From the NCBI GenBank assembly GCA_018304445.1, contig JAGVWD010000038.1, positions 1-9,508 of the forward strand: a stretch of 9,508 nt of DNA, written 5' to 3'. This document shows, one piece after another, positions 1-9,508 of this stretch. Each line of letters starts with the position of its first letter. Position 1 is the first letter of the stretch. Source of the DNA: Candidatus Iainarchaeum sp. Its GTDB lineage: Archaea > Iainarchaeota > Iainarchaeia > Iainarchaeales > JAXPJC01. The notes below the pieces were generated by a model. That model made no database searches, was not told the DNA's origin, and saw only the letters and a list, made by a program, of their open reading frames with translations. The translations under genes and the position numbers were made by a program.

Positions 1-147
1 GTCCTTGAGGGAAAAGGAGTTTTTAATTTAAAGGGGGAAAAAATTCCAATGAGGCCCGGAATCTGCATATTTATGGAAAAGAATGCAAAGCACTCCCTCA
101 AAGCGGAGCAGAACACTTCTTTCATACTTTCCCTGTGCGATGGCTGA
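1..147 (+). CDS. Cupin-domain protein, C-terminal fragment (5' end outside window)
   Basis: Frame 1 is open from the window edge to a TGA at 145-147, giving 48 residues that begin VLEGKGVFNLKGEKIP and continue with RPG, a hydrophobic strand, and KNAKHSLKAE before a final strand. This is the usual layout of the second half of a single-domain cupin: the G-rich turn, the PG turn, and then the second conserved motif with a His (fragment residue 31) that normally binds metal. The first cupin motif (HxH...E) would lie upstream and is not visible, so metal binding and substrate cannot be judged. The gene converges on lhr, with only 4 bp between the two stop codons. The antisense strand is also open here, but its translation resembles nothing, whereas this frame reads as a cupin. 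Confidence 0.72.
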   Translation, partial: VLEGKGVFNLKGEKIPMRPGICIFMEKNAKHSLKAEQNTSFILSLCDG

Positions 148-151
148 AATT

Positions 152-2749
152 TCATTCCCCTATTTTTCTCATTATCTTCTCATGCATGCGCTGTATGAAC
201 TGCAATCTTCCCTCAATGCGCATTATGTCCGCATAGCCCTGGGAGTACAGGTTAAGTGCAAAAGGGCTCGGAAGTTCTGCAGTCTTAATTTTTATTTCAA
301 TCTCCTTGTTTTCAATCCATTTGAGCAATTGCTCCGCGTGCCTTATGTCCATGGCATCCTCAAGCACCTCGCGACGCGTTTCCCTAAGTATTGGGAAATC
401 ATTTCCAATGCGCTTCACCGCGCTCAAAAGCAGGCGCGAATTCATCTGCTGTTTTCCCACTGATTTTTCCCTTCCCCTATAGTTGCGCAGTATCATCAGT
501 GAGCGCGTTGCGCAATGTCTGAAGCGCCTTCTGAACAATTCAGTGTCATCAATTGCCTTTTCAAGAACCATGCGCAGATTCTCGGACTTCAATAAATTGA
601 ATGCATGCTCAATCGGCATTTTTGTGTCCGCGCTTAAAATAAATCCATTGTCATCCAGAACAATTTCAATGTCCTTGTGCACCAATTTCCCAATGACATA
701 TGCAAGCGCCCTGCTCAGCGCATCATTAGTGCGCCTTCCGAATGTTGAATGGAAAATCGCATGGCGCATTTCCTCCTCCTTGTATATTTCAACCAGCAGC
801 TTTTCATTGTGCGGAATTTCACTGTACCTGAACTGCTCGTGGAAATAGGAATAAATCGCATTTGCTGCATTTTTGTCCACATACAGATAGGAATTTATGA
901 AGTCAATTATTTCGGCTTTTGCCCTTCTTGCAGAGAATTTCTGCTCCATTAATTTTCTGAAGCGCTGAATTTCAAGCGCAAGGTCAAAGCTCAATGGGAG
1001 CATTTCCGAGAACCAGCTCGGCACTGTTGGAGGTCTTTTCTCCGCGCTTGAAACATTCGCGACCATTCCGATTGCGTGCCTGAAAACATAGCTCTGCCCT
1101 CCCAGAATAAAAACATCGCCTTTGTGCAGGCGCTCCAGAAAACCCTCATCAATTGTGCCTATTACAAAATCACCAAGCTTCACTTTCACGCGCGCTTCAT
1201 CCGGAATAGTTCCAATATTCGTCATGTAAAGCACTCTTGCCAGCTTCCCGCGCTTTCCAATTATTCCAGAAGCCTCATCATGCCAGATTTTCGCATAAAC
1301 ATTGCGCGTTTCCAGGCTTGAATATGTTCCGGAAAGGTAATTTATTATTTCAAGGAAGTCATTCCTGCTTAATGCGGAATAGCAATAGCTGTGCCTTATT
1401 ATTTTGAGCAATTCATCAATGTGGATCTTGGAGTCAATTGCAATCCCATAAATGTGCTGCGCCAGAACATCAAGCGCGTTTTTAGGAACAGCAATTTTAT
1501 CAAGCTTCTTCTCAAGCGCATTTTTCAGCAGGACTGCGCACTCCACAAGGTCATCACGGTCCAGAACAACAATCCTGCCCTTTATCTGGTCATGCAGCTT
1601 GTGCCCAGATCTTCCCGTTCTTTGGATTGCGCGCGCAACAGATTTTGGCGAACCAAGCAGCACAACCAAATCAATATAGCCAATATCTATGCCCAACTCA
1701 AGCGAAGTGGAACAAACAACACATTTAAGTTTTCCCTCCTTGAGCCTGTTTTCAGTGTTTATGCGCAGTTCCCTGCTCAATGAGGAGTGGTGCGCCTCAA
1801 TATTCGCTTTGCGGTAATATTTCGGGTAATTCTCTTTCAAATAATGCACCACTCTTTCGGTAGCGGAGCGCGTGTTTGTGAAAACAAGCGTAGTCTTGTG
1901 CTCCTGGATCAACTCGTGCAGCGTTTTGTAGAGCGCGGAATGTATCTGCTCCTGCGTGACATTAATCAAATCTGGAAGCGGCGAAATAACTTTCAGGTCC
2001 ATTTTCTTGAGGAAATTCACATCAACAATCTTGCAGTCCCTCGGGGTTTCCGCATTTTCCATTCCCACAAGGAATTTCGCGATTTCCTCCAAGGGGGAAA
2101 TAGTTGCGCTCAATCCGATGCGTGCGAAGTTCGGATTGTAGTGCTGCAGCCTTTCAAGGCTCAGAGAGAGGTGCATGCCTCTCTTGTTGTCTGCAAGCGA
2201 ATGGATTTCATCCACAATAAGCCATTTTATTTCCTGCAGATGCGCCTTGAATCTTGGACTATTGAGGAGTATTGCAAATGATTCAGGAGTTGTAATTAAA
2301 ATATGCGGGGGCTTTGCGAGCATTTTTGCCCTTTCGCTTGTGGGAGTATCCCCTGTTCTGACAGCAACCCTCACATTGATTTCCTTCCCGAGCTTTTTTC
2401 CGGCTTTTGTTATCTCCTCCAACGGCTCCTTAAGATTTTTCTCAATATCGTTTGAAAGCGCGCGCAGGGGCGAAATGTACAAACAATAAACCCTGTCCTC
2501 AAGCATTTTGCTTTCGGAAAGCGTAATAAGTTCGCTCAACACTGCGGCAAAAGCGCTCAGGGTTTTTCCTGTTCCTGTTTCTGCACTTACAAGAGTGTTC
2601 TGGCGCTGATGGATATTCATTATTGCATAGCGCTGGGGCTCAGTAAACTTCCCAAATTTCCATTTGAACCACTTTGCAAGCAATGGATTCAGCGCTGAGA
2701 ATATCTCCTCATCCGAGTACTTCTGGGTCTGGGATTCTATCATATGCAT
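152..2749 (-). CDS. lhr: Lhr-like ATP-dependent helicase (superfamily 2)
   Basis: This 865-residue protein carries the ordered SF2 helicase motifs. They are Walker A AETGTGKT at residues 56-63, TTPES near 153, DEIH at 180-183, SAT at 214-216, TNTRS near 291, STSLELGIDIG near 347, and QRTGRSGH at 376-383. The DEIH box, the LGIDIG motif and the long C-terminal half (about residues 420-865) fit the Lhr family, in which two RecA domains are followed by a winged helix and an Lhr-specific region. The length is in the normal range for archaeal Lhr. Family members translocate 3'-5' on single-stranded DNA or RNA and unwind forked or hybrid duplexes, with roles proposed in repair and RNA metabolism. 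The start is ATG at 2749; an in-frame ATG two codons later (2743) is equally possible, since neither has a clear ribosome site. Lhr is confident; assignment to a particular archaeal Lhr subgroup is not possible here. Confidence 0.95.
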   Translation of the reverse strand: MHMIESQTQKYSDEEIFSALNPLLAKWFKWKFGKFTEPQRYAIMNIHQRQNTLVSAETGTGKTLSAFAAVLSELITLSESKMLEDRVYCLYISPLRALSNDIEKNLKEPLEEITKAGKKLGKEINVRVAVRTGDTPTSERAKMLAKPPHILITTPESFAILLNSPRFKAHLQEIKWLIVDEIHSLADNKRGMHLSLSLERLQHYNPNFARIGLSATISPLEEIAKFLVGMENAETPRDCKIVDVNFLKKMDLKVISPLPDLINVTQEQIHSALYKTLHELIQEHKTTLVFTNTRSATERVVHYLKENYPKYYRKANIEAHHSSLSRELRINTENRLKEGKLKCVVCSTSLELGIDIGYIDLVVLLGSPKSVARAIQRTGRSGHKLHDQIKGRIVVLDRDDLVECAVLLKNALEKKLDKIAVPKNALDVLAQHIYGIAIDSKIHIDELLKIIRHSYCYSALSRNDFLEIINYLSGTYSSLETRNVYAKIWHDEASGIIGKRGKLARVLYMTNIGTIPDEARVKVKLGDFVIGTIDEGFLERLHKGDVFILGGQSYVFRHAIGMVANVSSAEKRPPTVPSWFSEMLPLSFDLALEIQRFRKLMEQKFSARRAKAEIIDFINSYLYVDKNAANAIYSYFHEQFRYSEIPHNEKLLVEIYKEEEMRHAIFHSTFGRRTNDALSRALAYVIGKLVHKDIEIVLDDNGFILSADTKMPIEHAFNLLKSENLRMVLEKAIDDTELFRRRFRHCATRSLMILRNYRGREKSVGKQQMNSRLLLSAVKRIGNDFPILRETRREVLEDAMDIRHAEQLLKWIENKEIEIKIKTAELPSPFALNLYSQGYADIMRIEGRLQFIQRMHEKIMRKIGE

Positions 2750-2792
2750 CTTCTACATAACAGAATGCCGCTAAGCAAGCGATTACATATAG

Positions 2793-2798
2793 TATATA
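2793..2798 (-). promoter_or_regulatory. Candidate TATA box of lhr
   Basis: TATATA lies in the A+T-rich gap before lhr. Archaeal transcription starts about 26 bp from the box centre, which would put the start near 2769 and leave a leader of about 20 bases. The spacing is reasonable, but the whole gap is A+T-rich, so other boxes are possible. Confidence 0.4.
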
Positions 2799-2804
2799 GA
2801 ATAG

Positions 2805-2814
2805 AAATAAAAAT
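2805..2814 (-). terminator. T-rich candidate terminator after the kinase/PP-loop fusion gene
   Basis: On the minus strand this reads ATTTTTATTT, starting 6 bases past the stop codon of the fusion gene. Archaeal termination often needs only a T-run of this kind without a hairpin, and none is seen. The site lies just upstream of the lhr TATA box, so it would separate the two units. Confidence 0.3.
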
Positions 2815-2820
2815 CAATTA

Positions 2821-4392
2821 TTATATTAATTCTGCCTTTTTCAAAATCTGCGGAACACTATATTTGCATTTTCTTATTCTCTGTAATGCCCTTTTAGCCT
2901 CTTTTTTAGTAAGAAAGCCAACGGTAACTTCTCTTGCTAAACGGGTGGTATCCGGATGAAATCCTAAATTTTTACATAATGGCTCTTCTGCAGCGCAGGC
3001 TAAAAGGCAAGAAGCAGCATTGGATTGAACATTATGATAATAATTCCATCCAATCTTTTTAAGAATTTTTTTAGTATCTTTTAATTTTGCCTGAATCAAA
3101 AACGGAAAATGCACAATATAAACAGCAGGCTTATCGGGAAAAGGTTTTAATTTTCTAATTGCAGATACAACTAGTTTCTTTTGCGAGGTACTTTGTTTTA
3201 AGGAAGTCCATTCATTAATTCCAATTGCTACTGCCCGCACTCCGTGCTTGAGGGCCTCAAAATAGCGAGCATGGATTATTAATTCTCTGCACACCCAGCA
3301 AGGTCGCACAACACCCTGATATTCTCTACGGCCAGTTGCATAATCCATAACAAATTCCTCTTTTTTATCTCTTTTATAGAGGTCTGCCATTTTGCGAAAG
3401 CGTCTTAGCATTTTTTTAGTAATATATTTTCTGACCGGGATTATTTCATAATCAACTCCGCACATCTCAGCCACTTTTTTTGCTCTTCGGTAAATGTAAG
3501 GGTGAAAATAACCCAAGTCAAAGGTAAATGCGAGAGGGGTAAATCCCATTTCTCTAACCTGATATAGTGTTGCCGAACTATCTTTTCCGCCAGAAAGCCC
3601 CACCATTATATCGTATTTTCCTTTGCCGCTTCCTATAAATGATTTAAAAAGTGCTAATTCTTTAGCTAGAGCTTTCTTGTCAAAATTCTTCAGGTATATT
3701 TCGCAAACATCACAATAGCCTTCCTTATTAAACTTAATAAAAGGGTTTTGATTTGTATTAATGCACTTCTTGCATTCTTGTATTTTTTTCTGGACTAAAC
3801 TTATTATCTTATCCGCAATCTCTGCCGCAGAAATAGTGGAAGTATTAAATACCAAATCTGCCTCTTTCTCAATCTTCTTTGTCAGATATAGGCGGTCTTC
3901 CTCCTTTAATTCGTTTAAAATCTCTTTCTTCGAATAGTCCCTTTTCTTGGAAAGCCTTTCTAAAAGGTCTTCTTTATTTGCTTTAAGGAAAACAACAAAA
4001 TAGCCTCGTTTCTTAAAATATTTCGCATTTTCGTATCCTCTAACGCCGGTAAATATCAAGGGCGCAGTAGGATATTTTTTTGAATAAATCTTCTCAAGAG
4101 TCTCTGCTATAAAAGAGGGAAAATATTGTTTAACTAAAGAAGAAAAAATTTTCCTCGCTTTTTTCCTATTTATCGGGGCTTGGGTGGCTAAATTTTTATC
4201 AACAATTTTCTCGAGACTATAAAGAAGCGTGTTGTAATTGGAGGGCAATTTTTTGAAATGGCGCGCTATAGGAACAATAAGGCCTTCGGAAGACTCCACA
4301 ATTTTATAATTAGGAAGCTTGAAAGATAACTTTTTTGCAATTGTTGATTTGCCTGTTGCAGGCTCTCCAAAAATTACAATATTTTTTAACAT
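2821..4392 (-). CDS. Fusion: P-loop kinase-like domain + PP-loop N-acetyl sugar amidotransferase-like domain
   Basis: The 523 residues form two recognisable parts. Residues 1-205 resemble small P-loop kinases of the dephospho-CoA kinase/AAA_18/UPF0200 type: Walker A GEPATGKST at 9-17, TGVRGYENAKYFKKRG near 115-130, a basic lid-like segment near 145-151 (ERLSKKR), and a closing EADLVFNTS followed by a helix. Residues 207-500 resemble the N-acetyl sugar amidotransferase family (WbpG/PseA-like): paired CxxC (C207/C210 and C227/C230) around NPFIKFNKEG, the PP-loop LSGGKDSS at 266-273, TFD at 290-292, CWVC at 365-368, and a C-terminal GFLTKKEA segment like the GxITREE tail of that family. PP-loop enzymes activate a substrate by adenylation; in WbpG/PseA the outcome is amidation or amidination of a sugar nucleotide with ammonia from a partner glutaminase. 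No such partner lies in the window. The GHxxDD-like position found in many PP-loop proteins reads GINEW here. The gene is clearly richer in A+T than its neighbours and stands alone with its own promoter. The substrate is unknown, and tRNA or another nucleotide cannot be excluded. The fold calls are firmer than the function. Confidence 0.8.
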   Translation of the reverse strand: MLKNIVIFGEPATGKSTIAKKLSFKLPNYKIVESSEGLIVPIARHFKKLPSNYNTLLYSLEKIVDKNLATQAPINRKKARKIFSSLVKQYFPSFIAETLEKIYSKKYPTAPLIFTGVRGYENAKYFKKRGYFVVFLKANKEDLLERLSKKRDYSKKEILNELKEEDRLYLTKKIEKEADLVFNTSTISAAEIADKIISLVQKKIQECKKCINTNQNPFIKFNKEGYCDVCEIYLKNFDKKALAKELALFKSFIGSGKGKYDIMVGLSGGKDSSATLYQVREMGFTPLAFTFDLGYFHPYIYRRAKKVAEMCGVDYEIIPVRKYITKKMLRRFRKMADLYKRDKKEEFVMDYATGRREYQGVVRPCWVCRELIIHARYFEALKHGVRAVAIGINEWTSLKQSTSQKKLVVSAIRKLKPFPDKPAVYIVHFPFLIQAKLKDTKKILKKIGWNYYHNVQSNAASCLLACAAEEPLCKNLGFHPDTTRLAREVTVGFLTKKEAKRALQRIRKCKYSVPQILKKAELI

Positions 4393-4414
4393 GCGTTACT
4401 CACACAGTGCTCAT

Positions 4415-4433
4415 ATTTAGACAGTGTCTAAAT
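4415..4433. promoter_or_regulatory. 19-bp perfect palindrome, candidate operator of the fusion gene
   Basis: ATTTAGACAGTGTCTAAAT is a perfect inverted repeat with 9-bp arms around a single central base. It lies 23 bp before the fusion gene's start codon and directly downstream of a TATA-like box, so it falls between the box and the expected transcription start, a common place for archaeal repressor sites. No T-run follows on the minus strand, and a one-base loop cannot form a hairpin, so a terminator is unlikely. The protein that would bind is not known. Confidence 0.5.
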
Positions 4434-4440
4434 TAATATA
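4433..4440 (-). promoter_or_regulatory. Candidate TATA box of the fusion gene
   Basis: The minus strand reads TATATTAA. With the usual spacing, transcription would begin near 4410, giving a leader of about 17 bases that contains GTGAG six bases before the ATG at 4392, a plausible weak ribosome site. The last base of the box is the first of the adjoining palindrome. Confidence 0.45.
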
Positions 4441-4464
4441 TTCATTGTTCTTTAGCAATTTAAT

Positions 4465-5541
4465 CTATTGCTTAACAGCTTTTATTGCAGAATAGGGGCA
4501 GAGCTCAACGCATACCAAGCACTGGATGCATTTGCGCTCGTTTATTTCAGGGAATCCGTTTGAATTGTCAAATGAGAACGCGCTTTCAGGGCAGAAGTGC
4601 AGGCATTTCCTGCATTTTGCGCATTCCTGCGGATTTATTTCTGGCCTTTGCGCAGATAATTTTGCCTTGAGCACCTTATGCTTGAAGCCATATGCAAGCC
4701 TTGAAAGGCGCGTCGGAAGCCAGTCAATCTTTTTCGGCAATTCCAAATCAAAATGCTTTTCATTTATTATTTCAACATCAGGAATTCCGAATTCCTTTAT
4801 CGCCAGATCCAAATGATTTATTTTATTTACTGGAATGCCTGCGCATTTTGCAATTGCATAATCCACAGCAAGGGAATTTGTACCCGCAAATATTCTGTCC
4901 AGTTTTATTTTCTCCCCGGAGTGGGGTCCAGAGCCCTGCATTGCTGTTGTTGCATCCACAATCACCAAATCCGGCTTTAGGATGCGGTTGTAATCAACAA
5001 TCGCTTCATCAAGCCCAATCGTATGGCACTTTAATTTGTCATTCGGGTGCAGGCAGCCCTTCATATTTTTCAGTGCGCAGGTTATTGTTGTAAGTACATG
5101 GGTTTTGAGCACAGGAACATTTACAATTTTGTTCGCGCCCAGAATTGTTTCGGAAATTCTTGCATTTTTGAGAACCTTTGCATTTGGAATCTTTACATTC
5201 CTGAATTTGCCCTTATTGAGGTCGATCAATTCAATGCCGTATTTTTTTGAAATATCATAATAGCCCGCTTTCCTGAAGTTCGCGAGCGCGTTCCCTATTA
5301 TTGAAGTGCCTTCAGCAATCGTTATGTTCGGGCTTTTTTTGATGAGAAGGGAAACAAGAGAATCAATTACTGCGGAAGAAGTGTTTGCTCCGCTGCCGCT
5401 TTCCTGGAATTCATTTACATTCGGCTTTATTACGATTTTATCATTTTTCCCAAAGCCCGAAAAATTTATTGCATCAAGTGCAGAAGAAACGGCATTTTCA
5501 ATATTTTTTCCGGCATCAGCGCAGGCAACTTTTTCACTCAT
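4465..5541 (-). CDS. DUF362 protein with C-terminal 2[4Fe-4S] ferredoxin domain
   Basis: Residues 1-270 match the DUF362 pattern: KIVIKPNV near 35-42, VPVLKTH near 142-148, ALKNMKG near 156-162, VDATTAMQGSGP near 195-206, and AGTNSLAVD near 219-227. Residues 300-358 form a bacterial-type ferredoxin domain with two CxxCxxCxxxCP clusters, C307/C310/C313/C317 and C338/C341/C344/C348, each able to bind one [4Fe-4S] cluster. No signal peptide or membrane span is evident, so it is probably cytosolic. DUF362-ferredoxin proteins are common in anaerobic archaea and bacteria, but the reaction is not established; electron transfer is inferred only from the clusters. Its ATG overlaps the stop codon of the upstream phosphatidyltransferase by 4 bp (ATGA), which implies translational coupling. 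It is the last gene of its run. Confidence 0.9.
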   Translation of the reverse strand: MSEKVACADAGKNIENAVSSALDAINFSGFGKNDKIVIKPNVNEFQESGSGANTSSAVIDSLVSLLIKKSPNITIAEGTSIIGNALANFRKAGYYDISKKYGIELIDLNKGKFRNVKIPNAKVLKNARISETILGANKIVNVPVLKTHVLTTITCALKNMKGCLHPNDKLKCHTIGLDEAIVDYNRILKPDLVIVDATTAMQGSGPHSGEKIKLDRIFAGTNSLAVDYAIAKCAGIPVNKINHLDLAIKEFGIPDVEIINEKHFDLELPKKIDWLPTRLSRLAYGFKHKVLKAKLSAQRPEINPQECAKCRKCLHFCPESAFSFDNSNGFPEINERKCIQCLVCVELCPYSAIKAVKQ

Positions 5542-6101
5542 CCCAAAACCCTTTTAGCATAAATCAGCCTTGATGCAAGCGCATATGCGCCAATTACAAG
5601 CACAATATACACCGCATACTGCACTGAAATTTTCATTCCAAGGAGCAATCCGATGAAAATTATTCCTGTGCGAACTGCCCGCAGACTAATGCGCTCCCCT
5701 GTTGTTTTCTCAACCTGCGCATCAAGGCATGCGCTTGCATAGCTTGCAATTGTTATAAGCACTAATGCCGCCAAGCCAATCCACAATTCAACAAGTCCCG
5801 CAAGTATTATTGCGCACAAAATGATTGCGTCATTTATCCTGTCTGCCACTTTGTCAAAAAGCGAGCCGAATTTTGTTGAGCGCCTGTGGGTTTTTGCAAT
5901 TGCGCCGTCAAGCGAATCAAAAATTCCCGAAAGCAGCCAGAAGAGCGCCCCATAAGCAAGAGAATTCTGCAATACAAAATAGCCGGCAATGATGCAGAGC
6001 AGGATTGAAAATGCGGTTATGCAATCCGGGCTTATGTTCATGCGTTTTGCGATTGGCGCAAGCAGCGTCGCCTCTATCCTGCTTTTTGTTTTTATTTCCA
6101 T
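5538..6101 (-). CDS. CDP-alcohol phosphatidyltransferase family protein
   Basis: This 187-residue integral membrane protein has about six hydrophobic segments. It carries the family's catalytic signature in full: D62xxD65G66xxA69K70, then eight residues, G79xxxD83xxxD87. The four Asp residues bind two metal ions and activate the acceptor alcohol. The usual Arg after the Ala is Lys here, a conservative change. The N-terminus (PIAKRMNISPDCIT, residues 16-29) also fits the family. These enzymes join a CDP-activated lipid to an alcohol phosphate, releasing CMP. In archaea the donor is CDP-archaeol, and the short length fits archaetidylinositol-phosphate or archaetidylglycerophosphate synthases; the acceptor cannot be chosen from sequence. 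The ATG at 6101 directly abuts the TAA of the VTT gene, and the stop overlaps the DUF362 start, so the three are probably co-translated. Confidence 0.9.
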   Translation of the reverse strand: MEIKTKSRIEATLLAPIAKRMNISPDCITAFSILLCIIAGYFVLQNSLAYGALFWLLSGIFDSLDGAIAKTHRRSTKFGSLFDKVADRINDAIILCAIILAGLVELWIGLAALVLITIASYASACLDAQVEKTTGERISLRAVRTGIIFIGLLLGMKISVQYAVYIVLVIGAYALASRLIYAKRVLG

Positions 6102-9057: not shown

Positions 9058-9066
9058 TTTTTATAG
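9058..9066. promoter_or_regulatory. Shared TATA element of the divergent prs and HAD-like genes
   Basis: TTTTTATAG on the plus strand is centred about 27 bp before the ATG at 9090, predicting a leaderless HAD-like transcript. Read on the minus strand, CTATAAAAA predicts a prs start near 9036 with a leader of about 10 bases that is just the ribosome site. The 64-bp gap has no second equally good box, so one element may serve both directions. Confidence 0.45.
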
Positions 9067-9089
9067 CTTTGTTTTCCTATTCTTTAATT

Positions 9090-9508
9090 ATGCCCAAATT
9101 GGATCTGATTCCAGAGCAGCAGCTCAAAAAGCACGCGCTTGTCTTCTGCCTTGACAATGTTCTGATTCCGGGGGATATTGCGCAGAAGATAAACAGAAAT
9201 GAGATTGAGGAAATTCTGCAGAACCTCCGCGAAATGGAGCTTCGCTATAAAAATTTCCGCGTTTTTGCAGTTTCAGGGGCAAAAGCCCGGGAGGCAAAAG
9301 GCATAATAGCGGAAAACGGCCTGAATGCATACTTTGATGACGCAAATATTTTCGGGGTTACGCAATCCTATATAGATTCTAAGGAAGCAATTGACAAGGA
9401 GCGCTATAAGATTGAGCTGCAGAAAAACCCGAGATTTCGGGATGAGTTCTTCAAGCAGTATGCGATTGACAAGGAAATAATAGAAAAGCGCGGCATTCCC
9501 CGCGAGAA
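9090..9508 (+). CDS. HAD-like protein, N-terminal part (3' end outside window)
   Basis: The ATG at 9090 opens a frame that runs off the window, giving 139 full codons. VFCLDNVLIPG (residues 18-28) sits where HAD phosphatases have their first motif (hhhDxDxT). FRVFAVSGAKAREAKGI (56-72) resembles the second motif, with S62. AYFDDANIFG and a long charged helical region follow. In the first motif the nucleophilic Asp position reads Cys20, while the second Asp (D22) is kept, so ordinary HAD phosphatase chemistry is doubtful. Motifs III and IV would lie beyond the edge. The call rests on motif pattern only; a different Rossmann-like protein is possible. Transcription appears leaderless from the TATA element shared with prs. 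Confidence 0.6.
   Translation, partial: MPKLDLIPEQQLKKHALVFCLDNVLIPGDIAQKINRNEIEEILQNLREMELRYKNFRVFAVSGAKAREAKGIIAENGLNAYFDDANIFGVTQSYIDSKEAIDKERYKIELQKNPRFRDEFFKQYAIDKEIIEKRGIPRE

Follow-up and report, generated by a model that had tools for sequence, protein, structure and literature searches.

The PP-loop sulfur transferases TtcA, TtuA and NcsA, as well as the [4Fe-4S]-type LarE, employ three Cys residues to hold an iron-sulfur cluster, the free iron of which passes an extra sulfide (excerpted text of PMC10067955 and PMC9283937), and in NcsA the distance from Cys142 to Cys233 is 91 residues (PMC10067955, excerpt). N-acetyl sugar amidotransferases are defined as a family by a tetracysteine motif of the zinc type (PMC10607449, excerpt). 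Thiolation of a purine nucleotide has a precedent in the 6-thioguanine clusters, in which the sulfur transferase is encoded by a separate gene and the reactions are described as unconfirmed (PMC7994395, excerpt). Inosine 5'-monophosphate (IMP) cyclohydrolase relies on the catalytic residues Lys66, Tyr104, Asp125 and Lys137 in the human numbering (PMC3261824, excerpt). Here we analyzed a 523-residue protein encoded in a 9,508-nucleotide stretch of Candidatus Iainarchaeum sp. (GCA_018304445.1, contig JAGVWD010000038.1; hereafter the window), in which a P-loop kinase-like domain is fused to a zinc-ribbon PP-loop module. We tentatively propose, as an assignment that falls somewhat short of probable, that this fusion protein is a purine mononucleotide thiolase whose kinase-like domain handles the same nucleotide.

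A preliminary description of this stretch, made from its letters alone, had reported a Walker A motif, a zinc ribbon and a PP-loop in one unbroken frame, and all of these were found at the reported residues in the translated open reading frame (ORF) (Table 1). The N-terminal half matched the Pfam families AAA_18 (1.6e-7) and SKI (9.8e-6), both over the cut-off, while none of nine listed NCBIfam families reached its own cut-off on this domain. Possessing a Walker A motif and a kinase fold, the domain has an AMP (adenosine monophosphate)-bound structure as its nearest fold, together with weak sequence matches (1.9e-4 and 2.8e-4) to SSO1041-type proteins of UPF0200 (3lw7, 3h0k). The C-terminal half matched Pfam QueC at 2.7e-4, slightly under the cut-off, and the NCBIfam model of the N-acetyl sugar amidotransferase WbuX (TIGR03573) over residues 205-332 with an E-value of 5.2e-21; this latter match scored 75.5 bits, far short of the 203.2-bit cut-off, and a standalone Clostridia homologue scored 70.9 bits. 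The amidotransferase tetracysteine motif CXXCXn[GN]XCXXC followed by SGGXDS was indeed present, as C207xxC210 ... G225-x-C227xxC230 and SGGKDS. The TtuA model NF049949 gave 22.0 bits against a cut-off of 450, and since the cut-offs of both TIGR03573 and TtuA were missed, the protein was assigned to neither family. In the fold list of a PP-loop homologue, 8wex was followed at ranks 2-25 by the sulfur transferases TrmU/MnmA, TtuA, LarE and NcsA, many of these being repeat entries of LarE, and the list also held guanosine monophosphate (GMP) synthetase chains and YcfA; a family missing from the list was not read as excluded. The module is likely to be a PP-loop sulfur transferase built on an amidotransferase-type scaffold. 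The full-length architecture was covered by no Pfam or NCBIfam model, and no description of it was found in the open-licence papers searched, in agreement with the earlier remark that the pair was not known as a described enzyme. Within the C-terminal signature (Table 1), F478, P480, D481, R484, L485, R487, E488, T490 and F493 were invariant over the 106 rows aligned.

The Cys triad formed by C365, C368 and C462, which was absent from the preliminary description, proved to be widely shared by the homologues. The CxxCR sequence was found in all 287 listed proteins bearing SGGxDS, and also in P0280, the motif of which reads SSGKDS. The third Cys was matched by pattern in 262 of the 288 listed proteins, and 21 of the remaining 26 displayed a Cys at +94 on reading; the last five (P0103, P0211, P0276, P0285 and P0288) are short, shifted or unclear. 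When a profile of 33 PP-loop rows was compared with the single TtcA of E. coli, the two CxxC pairs coincided with an E-value of 3.4e-9 in this one local alignment, outside of which lies the third Cys, whose equivalence rests on spacing. The tandem proteins encoded by more distant relatives (loci L012-L014) also carry a CxxC plus a later Cys, and those of L012 and L014, the two loci tested, sit behind a cysteine desulfurase resembling NifS/DndA (9.5e-108 and 4.8e-110, respectively), whereas a plain relative at L015 is without either Cys site. The desulfurase beside these triad-bearing relatives and the lack of both Cys sites in L015 thus provided the best evidence that the triad may mark sulfur chemistry. 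Judging from the sequence, sulfur transfer appears to fit better than amidation. At L012 (8718-14163) and L014 (6806-10527), the genes behind the desulfurase form a tandem of amidotransferase-like PP-loop genes, and L012 also encodes a NodU-like carbamoyltransferase.

The kinase-like domain was found to have a counterpart among the relatives. At all six intact loci whose PP-loop gene has no kinase, a PurH-type IMP cyclohydrolase was present: directly upstream of the PP-loop gene with overlaps of 11, 4 and 11 nt at L006, L008 and L026, fused to the PP-loop at L025 and at L005 (the contig of L005 starting inside the cyclohydrolase), and on the same 6.1-kb contig but on the opposite strand, with two genes between, at L009. 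The matches to PurH (L006, 9e-68; L008, 8e-57; L009, 3e-65) covered its N-terminal half only, and five fused cyclohydrolase-PP-loop proteins were found among the matches listed. The catalytic Lys, Asp and Lys, placed by eye with the human motif context as a guide, were kept in all nine aligned proteins and the Tyr in eight, being replaced by Phe in L009. In the 14 host genomes searched, from which G010 was excluded and which are metagenome-assembled genomes (MAGs) of unstated completeness, so that single absences are soft, a cyclohydrolase-only match to PF01808 was obtained in six of six kinase-less genomes and in none of the eight with the kinase fusion (Fisher p 3.3e-4); five of the six matches were over the cut-off, and that of G005, split across contig ends, was below it. 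According to the table of a 279-genome draw, eight genomes possess the cyclohydrolase part alone, including all four that carry the PP-loop without a kinase (p 2.8e-7; 3.9e-4 when the two genomes that had already been known are set aside).

Of the purine genes sought in the same host genomes, PurC was detected in one of the 14 (G454, of the kinase type), PurP in none, and PurA in five, just one of which (G006) belongs to the six kinase-less genomes. None of PurC, PurP and 5-aminoimidazole-4-carboxamide ribonucleotide (AICAR) transformylase was found in those six, giving no indication that the cyclohydrolase is a member of a de novo purine pathway. The kinase and the cyclohydrolase, which are unrelated and have nothing in common except that they handle (purine) nucleotides, occupy the same slot ahead of the PP-loop domain, and this is most simply explained if the substrate of that domain is a purine ribonucleotide or one of its near precursors. 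Orphan cyclohydrolases also occur in genomes without the PP-loop gene, and the domain may therefore have a wider role; in G412, one of the eight cyclohydrolase-only genomes, it lies in an apparently ordinary purine cluster, as judged from ORF starts. By the same kind of reading, the orphan cyclohydrolases of two Patescibacteria draws (L077, 4652-5302; L078, 4809-5489) lie between a UvrD-like helicase and the same 171-residue protein. The L009 locus of Clostridia (75-5979) encodes the IMP cyclohydrolase, a methionyl-tRNA synthetase, a 465-residue protein similar to leucyl-tRNA synthetase, the PP-loop protein and a MoaA-like radical S-adenosylmethionine protein, and looks like a biosynthetic cluster.

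In the reaction that we propose, the PP-loop domain would use ATP to adenylate the carbonyl oxygen of a purine-type 5'-mononucleotide, in the simplest case O6 of IMP or of a close analogue. C365, C368 and C462 would hold a [4Fe-4S] cluster whose fourth iron stays free; this cluster would carry an extra sulfide, which would then attack the adenylated carbon and release AMP to afford a thio-nucleotide. The N-terminal adenylate-kinase-related domain would either make the monophosphate or lift the thio-nucleotide to the diphosphate, and in the sister proteins its place is taken by the IMP cyclohydrolase. The earlier interpretation, that one polypeptide might phosphorylate and activate the same small molecule or that the kinase domain might supply a sugar-nucleotide or cofactor precursor, was as a whole partly supported. 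Two observations weigh against purine mononucleotide thiolation: no NifS/DndA-like desulfurase was seen next to the genes of the family itself at the loci read, and the cyclohydrolase-type genomes show no supply of 5-formamidoimidazole-4-carboxamide ribonucleotide (FAICAR), which does not fit. AICAR or FAICAR may reach cells of the cyclohydrolase type by import; alternatively, the enzyme may serve for ring opening in these cells, or may close the ring of a thiolated ring-open intermediate. A bolder extension, which we consider unlikely, is that the protein represents a self-contained thiopurine-nucleotide synthase that travels horizontally among Patescibacteria and DPANN archaea and has relatives within a different gene cluster in Clostridia. 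Its PP-loop/[4Fe-4S] domain, whether partnered by an IMP cyclohydrolase or by an NMP-kinase-like domain, would furnish a thio-IMP-like nucleotide that serves as an antimetabolite toward a host or competitor or as a new nucleotide cofactor, in cells mostly unable to make purines.

To describe the distribution of the family, three overlapping searches of a metagenomic protein set, which returned 344, 459 and 243 homologues, were used with the best 120 of each listed. By pattern, the 173 proteins listed from two of the searches comprised 123 with an N-terminal Walker A, five with IMP cyclohydrolase and 45 with neither. Full-length relatives at 42-73% identity kept the domain order on many separate contigs, as the survey of genomes suggested earlier was to reveal; a join of two genes by misassembly near residue 205, which had also been considered, was ruled out by the occurrence of the same fusion on many different contigs. 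The named sources among the matches listed were Sungiibacteriota, Harrisonbacteria, Paceibacterota, Uhrbacteria, Yanofskybacteria and Lloydbacteria of the Patescibacteria, in addition to Micrarchaeaceae, Nanoarchaeia, Woesearchaeota, Clostridia, a Micromonosporaceae MAG and a Cyclobacteriaceae MAG, and some listed copies bear the public names shikimate kinase, TilS or 7-cyano-7-deazaguanine synthase. Genomes seldom carry the family: in phylum surveys that scored three (G002) and five (G006) first-look candidates per genome, it was found in one of 379 genomes drawn from the phylum of G002, namely G002 itself, and in six of 279 from that of G006, G006 included. Order surveys around G009 and G630 recovered it in one of 191 and one of 18 genomes, the survey centers only. 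None of 600 pattern matches in viral contigs was confirmed as a family member, no member was found in phages, and plasmids gave only three partial matches (21-25% coverage, ~30% identity). At L010 (10001-11000, G010:C117) of Micromonosporaceae, the PP-loop gene is split over two frames, through either decay or sequencing error.

A tree was built from 185 PP-loop domains, with L010, L011, L012-L015 and L027 left out. On this tree the three partner labels required at least 21 changes, and the well-supported branches alone forced at least eight kinase, ten standalone and three cyclohydrolase label changes. The window protein fell within a supported set of 39 rows, consisting of 27 standalone proteins and 12 kinase fusions. 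These repeated changes indicate that N-terminal partners were gained and lost many times, with the reservation that some standalone rows may be fragments (P0011, P0132, P0133, P0153 and P0155 may be fusions trimmed by contig ends or start choice). The kinase form showed no common neighbor in L001-L004, L007, L023, L024 and L027, where ORF starts were read and a few genes were family-scanned in a non-systematic manner.

Other chemistries were weighed against the same evidence. The protein could be an ammonia ligase, in which an adenylated amide or lactam oxygen is displaced as AMP by ammonia in the manner of N-acetyl sugar amidotransferase or GMP synthetase, perhaps as a shortcut of IMP salvage, with the extra Cys residues binding a structural metal. 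The amidotransferase type as the best fold and family match, the GMP synthetase chains among the fold matches and the lack of a PurA match in nine of the 14 host genomes agree with this explanation, which we nonetheless regard as unlikely: the CxxC + C triad is invariant in the family and is missing from the plain relative at L015, the rare and patchy distribution is ill-suited to a core salvage step, and no glutamine amidotransferase match was obtained among the eight window proteins scanned, consistent with the earlier statement that no glutaminase partner is nearby. Quite improbable is the reading in which the protein thiolates RNA as TtcA, TtuA and NcsA do and thereby modifies tRNA, the N-terminal domains being accessory. 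The Cys triad and ATP chemistry are alike, TtuA and NcsA stand high in the fold list, and both possess an N-terminal zinc ribbon as does the fusion protein; however, TtuA and NcsA carry zinc fingers at both ends (PMC10067955, excerpt) and no second Cys4 motif was seen in the fusion, its presence is patchy in both phylum surveys, and its kinase and cyclohydrolase partners are both enzymes of small-molecule nucleotides.

It is very doubtful that the PP-loop has a compound with an open ring, or one other than a purine, as its substrate, converting for instance the carboxamide of AICAR or FAICAR to a thioamide or nitrile before or after ring closure or opening by the cyclohydrolase, as nothing points directly to a product of this kind and the N-terminal domain of the kinase form would need another role. 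That the two domains are independent, the fusion having little mechanistic meaning, is likewise very improbable, given that the N-terminal partner is an enzyme of nucleotides in either form and that the fusion is preserved down to ~42-47% identity, even though standalone PP-loops, some perhaps fragments from contig ends, interleave with fusions in the tree as if the N-terminal domain were dispensable in some lineages.

Based on the ORF list and family scans, the window contains eight main genes, all on the minus strand, among which the fusion gene is flanked by same-strand genes with gaps of 72 bp upstream and 71 bp on the other side. Its neighbors in the window include genes for a Lhr-like helicase, a DUF362-ferredoxin protein and a ribose-phosphate diphosphokinase, as assigned with Pfam and NCBIfam, as well as a CDP-alcohol phosphatidyltransferase, the best NCBIfam match of which, archaetidylinositol phosphate synthase, was below the cut-off of that model. 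The guanine-plus-cytosine (GC) content of the fusion gene was 35.4%, with 31% at third codon positions, against 41.8-49.0% in the seven other window genes measured; it thus looks acquired, and probably encodes an accessory enzyme. The window gave no Rfam match at gathering thresholds, and neither the window fusion protein nor the L025 fusion gave a PADLOC defense match. A plus-strand ORF at 9060-9506 runs off the right end of the window.

Table 1. Positions in the window of the fusion gene, its domains and motifs, and the upstream palindrome.
Feature	Position	Strand	Remarks
523-residue kinase-like/PP-loop fusion gene	2821..4392	-	Uninterrupted frame, ATG at 4392; order common to 123/173 listed homologues
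P-loop kinase-like domain, residues 1-204	3781..4392	-	Adenylate-kinase-related protein is the nearest fold
Walker A GEPATGKST, residues 9-17	4342..4368	-	G9, G14 and K15 the same in all 25 fusions aligned
Zinc-ribbon PP-loop module, residues 205-523	2824..3780	-	
Zinc ribbon C207xxC210 ... C227xxC230	3703..3774	-	Invariant, 106-row alignment
PP-loop LSGGKDSS, residues 266-273	3574..3597	-	S267-S272 invariant, 106-row alignment
C365xxC368, putative [4Fe-4S] ligands 1 and 2	3289..3300	-	Invariant, 106 rows; family CxxC aligns on TtcA C122xxC125
C462, putative [4Fe-4S] ligand 3	3007..3009	-	Invariant, 106 rows; 97 residues past C365
C-terminal signature FHPDTTRLAREVTVGF, residues 478-493	2914..2961	-	Strongly conserved across the family
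Perfect 9+1+9 palindrome ATTTAGACA-G-TGTCTAAAT	4415..4433	.	72-bp gap upstream of the gene; sole match in the window

The palindrome upstream of the gene is a possible operator: one equally good appeared in four of 5000 mononucleotide shuffles of the 72-bp gap, and it was not found at 13 related loci. TrmB-like regulators are divergent from the cyclohydrolase in L025, L026 and L074, an arrangement that would suit an inducible accessory function. At L074 (3250-5554), the TrmB-like regulator and a partner-type IMP cyclohydrolase are followed by a DNA methylase gene where the PP-loop gene would stand.

The present architecture has more than 100 listed public copies and is without a Pfam or NCBIfam model. 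The swap of kinase and cyclohydrolase in genomes without the de novo purine genes tested points to a concrete class of substrates, and bears on the role of orphan IMP cyclohydrolases in reduced genomes. If the product were indeed a thiopurine nucleotide, the fusion would add a thiolase of free nucleotides to lineages whose host-interaction chemistry is almost unknown.

Compared with the described systems, the fusion protein departs from WbuX/WbpG (TIGR03573; 8wex) in its CxxC + C triad and in its fused kinase, or cyclohydrolase in the relatives, and in its score far below the TIGR03573 cut-off. It resembles TtcA, TtuA and NcsA in combining a PP-loop with a CxxC + C triad of similar spacing, but differs from them in that no C-terminal zinc finger was seen, in its fusion to nucleotide enzymes and in scoring under the TtuA cut-off. 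Unlike the [4Fe-4S]-bearing LarE, it possesses a zinc ribbon and a fusion partner, and no nickel-pincer genes were present among the neighbors read. Its kinase domain shows a weak sequence likeness to the archaeal SSO1041 (UPF0200), which stands alone. PurH2, the IMP cyclohydrolase half of PurH, is the alternative PP-loop partner in the relatives and not in the window protein, and the other half of PurH, AICAR transformylase, is missing from the six cyclohydrolase-type genomes. By analogy, the nearest functional idea appears to be the synthesis of 6-thioguanine by YcfA/TgsB, from which the present case is set apart by description and not by sequence: an operon with a desulfurase and NUDIX proteins there, one fusion protein here.
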